Below are positions 1 through 32,372 of a DNA stretch of 32,372 nt, piece by piece. The stretch spans positions 1-32,372 of the forward strand of contig CAJXPE010000004.1 of assembly GCA_913057965.1 (NCBI GenBank), written 5' to 3'. The DNA is from an uncultured Marixanthomonas sp. (GTDB lineage Bacteria > Bacteroidota > Bacteroidia > Flavobacteriales > Flavobacteriaceae). The stretch's first letter is position 1; each line of letters begins with the position of its first letter. The notes under the pieces were generated by a model. The model searched no databases. It had not been told where the DNA came from and saw only the letters and a program-made list of their open reading frames with translations. Made by a program: the position numbers and the translations under genes.

Positions 1-102
1 AGACAGATTGTAAAGTTGTTTTTACGTAAAATAAATATTTTTTTTAACAAAGTTTAACCCTAAGAGATACCATTTCATAAATATCAAACAGTTTTTTAGC
101 AT

Positions 103-31916: not shown

Positions 31917-31994
31917 TTTATTTTGTTTTGGTGATTACTCTATATTTTATCTTTATAGATAGCCCTTTTCTTTGTGTTAGAAAAAGTGACAAAA

Positions 31995-32024
31995 AAAGCC
32001 CGAAGACATCACCCTTCGAGCTTT
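31995..32024. terminator. Degenerate terminator-like hairpin
   Basis: AAAGCCCGAAG / CTTCGAGCTTT, 11-bp arms with one mismatch, A-tract upstream. Confidence 0.4.
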
Positions 32025-32135
32025 ACCTTAAATACTAGTACTACCCAGTAACTTATAAACTGGCATTACAGCGTTTAATCAACAAAATTTATTTAACTCG
32101 TTTGCTAAATTAGACAAACAAGCCGCGTTATACAA

Positions 32136-32151
32136 TACGTACAATTACGTA
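32136..32151. promoter_or_regulatory. Second TACGTA-N4-TACGTA site
   Basis: TACGTACAATTACGTA, same architecture as 29351-29366. Confidence 0.35.
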
Positions 32152-32331
32152 TTTATTATAAAATGAATAGAAAAAATAGCATTACGAGGGTGTTTTTCGA
32201 TTCAAAGTTTTTGAACTCTGTTTTTAAAATGAGCCAATTTCTTTTAGGACTTAAAGAAATGTTATGTAAAAGGTCTATATACAGTTACTATATCGATTTA
32301 AATTAAACGACAGCATCAAATACATCTAAAT

Positions 32332-32372
32332 CTGTCTCTTATACACATCTGACGCTGCCGACGACTCCTTAC
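32332..32372 (+). other. Nextera adapter contamination: mosaic end, Read-1 adapter and i5 index
   Basis: CTGTCTCTTATACACATCTGACGCTGCCGACGA followed by CTCCTTAC, the reverse complement of GTAAGGAG. Confidence 0.98.

Follow-up and report, generated by a model that had tools for sequence, protein, structure and literature searches.

The window, that is, the whole stretch of 32,372 nucleotides that was analysed, corresponds to contig C4 in an assembly totalling 3,052,781 bases in 355 contigs. Read directly, its tail runs ...ACATCTAAAT, CTGTCTCTTATACACATCT, GACGCTGCCGACGA and CTCCTTAC, the first of these being genomic. In detail, CTGTCTCTTATACACATCT (32332..32350, plus strand) exactly matches the 19-nt Tn5/Nextera mosaic end in the Tn5MErev orientation, while GACGCTGCCGACGA (32351..32364, plus strand) and CTCCTTAC (32365..32372, plus strand) are the reverse complements of the Nextera Read-1 (Tn5ME-A) tail TCGTCGGCAGCGTC and of GTAAGGAG, respectively. 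PMC4248319 prints both Tn5MErev and the Read-1 adapter Tn5ME-A (TCGTCGGCAGCGTC plus the mosaic end; Illumina FC-121-1030), and 33 bases of the window agree with these oligonucleotides letter for letter; GTAAGGAG is listed as i5 index S505 in PMC7589761. The 41 bases are fully accounted for as 19 + 14 + 8 with no remainder, the final base of the contig (32372) being the final base of the i5 index, and the window is identical over 41/41 bases to the Nextera (Tn5 tagmentation) Read-1 adapter with i5 S505 in read-through orientation. The earlier note had proposed a Tn5 mosaic end at the contig end, completed by the complement of the Nextera Read-1 adapter and followed by an 8-nt reverse complement of S505, and all three proposals were borne out by comparison with the published oligonucleotides and index table.

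The 19-mer mosaic end occurred once in the window, with no mismatch, in a search allowing up to 3 mismatches, and had 0 occurrences in 100 dinucleotide-preserving shuffles of the window, indicating that it is not expected by chance. No ORF of at least 20 aa overlapped 32332-32372, the nearest one stopping at 32306, so no gene reading in the window depends on the adapter.

Upstream of the adapter, comparison with congeners revealed a conserved, small-RNA-like intergenic element on the minus strand (~31983-32150), which is present in three of them at 76-80% identity over 160-199 bp. It terminates in a terminator-like hairpin followed by a T-run, and the hairpin stem carries compensatory changes at two pairs. 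No Rfam family matched the element at gathering score, a MicC match (E 0.39) lying far below the cut-off; it is possibly a small RNA.

To quantify the spread of the adapter, the mosaic end was searched in the whole assembly, and 448 copies were found in the 355 contigs (234 forward and 214 reverse), while a reversed-pattern control gave no matches. Among the matches listed, the mosaic ends sat no more than about 85 bases from a contig end, with the strand pointing outwards. Further, the Read-1-type adapter followed by 8 bases was present in 138 copies, and at 98 of the 100 sites listed among them the i5 was CTCCTTAC; the two variants seen among these matches, CTCCTCAC in C171 and CTCCCTAC in C208, were each one base off. 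The Read-2-type adapter was present in 203 copies, and the i7 was CTCTCTAC, listed as N707 in PMC7589761, at all 100 of the sites listed. A single i5 and a single i7 sequence indicate that the library was indexed N707/S505, and the constancy of both at contig ends upholds the statement of the earlier note that the library index can be read from the assembly. The genome-wide spread of the adapter was not mentioned there. Other contigs of the assembly continue beyond the index into GTGTAGA, whereas the window contig ends exactly where the index does.

According to PMC4248319, the mosaic end was derived from the Tn5 ends. As an alternative source of the terminal 41 bases, a genuine transposon end of the Tn5/IS50 type, or a mini-Tn5 carried by the bacterium in life, was considered. 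However, the mosaic end is a hybrid of synthetic origin, and here it is followed by a primer tail and a sample index and then by the end of the contig, with no transposon body beyond it. Hundreds of contig ends share this structure, which comes in two adapter types, each with its own single index. In addition, the mosaic end was found in 0/39 related genomes at up to 1 mismatch, so it is no lineage trait. A natural insertion is thus vanishingly improbable. In contrast, we consider it practically certain (probability about 0.995) that 32332-32372 is an untrimmed Nextera adapter, arising from a Tn5 cut after 32331, a PCR-added S505 tail and short-insert read-through; no evidence to the contrary came to light. 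The exact adapter and index, and their recurrence at contig ends as opposed to their absence in relatives, are observed directly, as is the Tn5 target signature described below. As for the route, Tn5 transposase severed the bacterial DNA after base 32331 and attached the mosaic end at the cut, and PCR supplied the S505 i5 tail; where the fragment was shorter than a read, sequencing would then have passed through the genomic insert into adapter and index, and, if these reads were left untrimmed, the assembler would have extended the contig into the adapter. We infer the short-insert read-through and the lack of trimming.

The Tn5 target consensus is GNTYWRANC. On the genomic side, the 9 bases that precede the adapter were taken from 378 of the 444 junctions of the assembly, namely the matches listed. 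These 378 ends had a symmetric composition centred on position 5: G was over-represented at position 1 and C at position 9, T at 2 and 4, and A at 6 and 8, whereas G/C was under-represented at 5. Measured against GNTYWRANC, the 378 junctions had a mean fit of 3.68 of 7 versus 2.62 for all 9-mers of the window, and a fit of at least 5 was reached by 24% of the ends versus 6% of the window 9-mers. A G/C pair at the edge of a 9-bp core is described in PMC8557372. The final 9 genomic bases of the window, CATCTAAAT (32323..32331, plus strand), match GNTYWRANC at 5 of its 7 specified positions and represent the Tn5 target sequence at its right cut. With the adapter exact from 32332 and a Tn5-like target just before it, the end of the genomic sequence at about 32331, as previously placed, was confirmed.

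At the left end of the window, bases 1..6 (plus strand) read AGACAG, matching the mosaic end over its six 3′-terminal bases, a probable 6-nt remnant on which the earlier note was silent. Among 20 checked contig starts that were absent from the first listing of mosaic ends, a truncated mosaic end was found at two, the window contig and C17 (AAGAGACAG), and the start of C19 carried the adapter with one mismatch. The chance of a given hexamer at one position is about 1 in 4,000, which suggests that bases 1-6 are probably adapter too. Homology to the congeners starts only at about base 37-44 of the window, so this comparison speaks neither for nor against adapter at 1-6.

Because Tn5 duplicates 9 bp of its target (PMC4248319), the same 9 bases are expected on both contigs wherever a single insertion has separated them. 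Among the 378 junctions, 10 reverse-complement 9-bp pairs were found, compared with a column-shuffle mean of 2.3 (maximum 7 in 300 shuffles), and this excess suggests that several contigs may be re-joinable. Six joins were built, representing five of the ten pairs, one of which had two possible partners. The 9-mer ATATAACAT is common to the end of C60 and the start of C5, and joining these contigs yielded a whole 341-aa group-1 glycosyltransferase, of which residues 53-341 lie in C60 and residues 1-57 in C5; the protein is intact in six congeners at 63-73% identity. A gene restored across the join directly shows that this break, at least, was a tagmentation cut. Another candidate, the C53-C235 join, was rejected, as it would fuse a sigma-54 activator to diphosphomevalonate decarboxylase. 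With one pair confirmed and one false, a gene-level check is needed for each candidate. It is somewhat likely that the retained 9-bp Tn5 duplication would allow certain pairs of contigs in untrimmed public assemblies to be re-joined in this way without reads.

As for the right end of the window, AGACAG+CATCTAAAT was found nowhere else in the assembly and the pattern AGACAGCATCTAAAT had no copy there, that is, no partner contig was found. The last stretch homologous to relatives stops at about 32172, so the relatives do not reveal the sequence beyond 32331. The same 9 bases, TTATTATGT, precede the adapter in the same orientation at the end of C46 and at the starts of C113 and C266, and the starts of C1 and C5 also have ATATAACAT in common; these shared 9-mers may be repeat boundaries or chance.

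The adapter was then compared with public records. The 33-nt adapter was found in public genome contigs and in viral contigs, each scan giving well over 100 stretches among the matches listed, and many unrelated public assemblies have contigs that end in the adapter followed by other S5xx indexes. Like the window, adapter-contaminated public MAG, phage and plasmid records carry the same 33-nt adapter at contig ends and then known S5xx indexes, but these indexes mostly differ from that of the window. In detail, the 33-nt adapter occurred in 26 phage records, MK373775.1, NC_049386.1, MK170160.1 and MZ092003.1 being examples, and in 8 plasmid records, while none of the complete E. coli genomes contained it at the same sensitivity. 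Literature searches for a published survey of Nextera adapters in deposited contigs yielded nothing specific.

A few public records hold the adapter in their interior with sequence on both sides, as would be expected if an adapter-containing chimeric fragment, rather than short-insert read-through, had been joined by the assembler. In the window, however, the adapter lies at the very end, in read-through orientation and with a Tn5-like target before it, and a chimeric origin is very improbable here. The terminal adapter of the window, read as an untrimmed Nextera end, is an ordinary laboratory artefact with no new biology, and its significance is that of a data-quality warning only. Trimming is called for at positions 32332-32372, and probably 1-6, of contig C4 and at hundreds of other contig ends in the assembly. 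Adapters left in place make unrelated genomes falsely appear to share sequence, can lead searches with short sequences to link records that have a library kit alone in common, and can enter annotated proteins, for example in plasmid p16HN-35_Vir.

In that plasmid (NZ_CP040712.1; L264 3001-3045), a Nextera adapter with a different index, CTAGTCGA, lies inside the annotated hypothetical protein WP_286497426.1, the C-terminus of which is therefore probably artefactual. The K. pneumoniae plasmid pHA2-23-vir (NZ_MH643786.1; L263 3001-3042) carries the same adapter and index as the window, CTCCTTAC, followed by GTGTAGATCTCGGT, at an intergenic site beside IS5075 in the interior of a record labelled complete. 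Similarly, in several of the 26 phage records the adapter lies in the interior and is overlapped by annotated genes, among them one for a long tail fibre and one for a terminase subunit.
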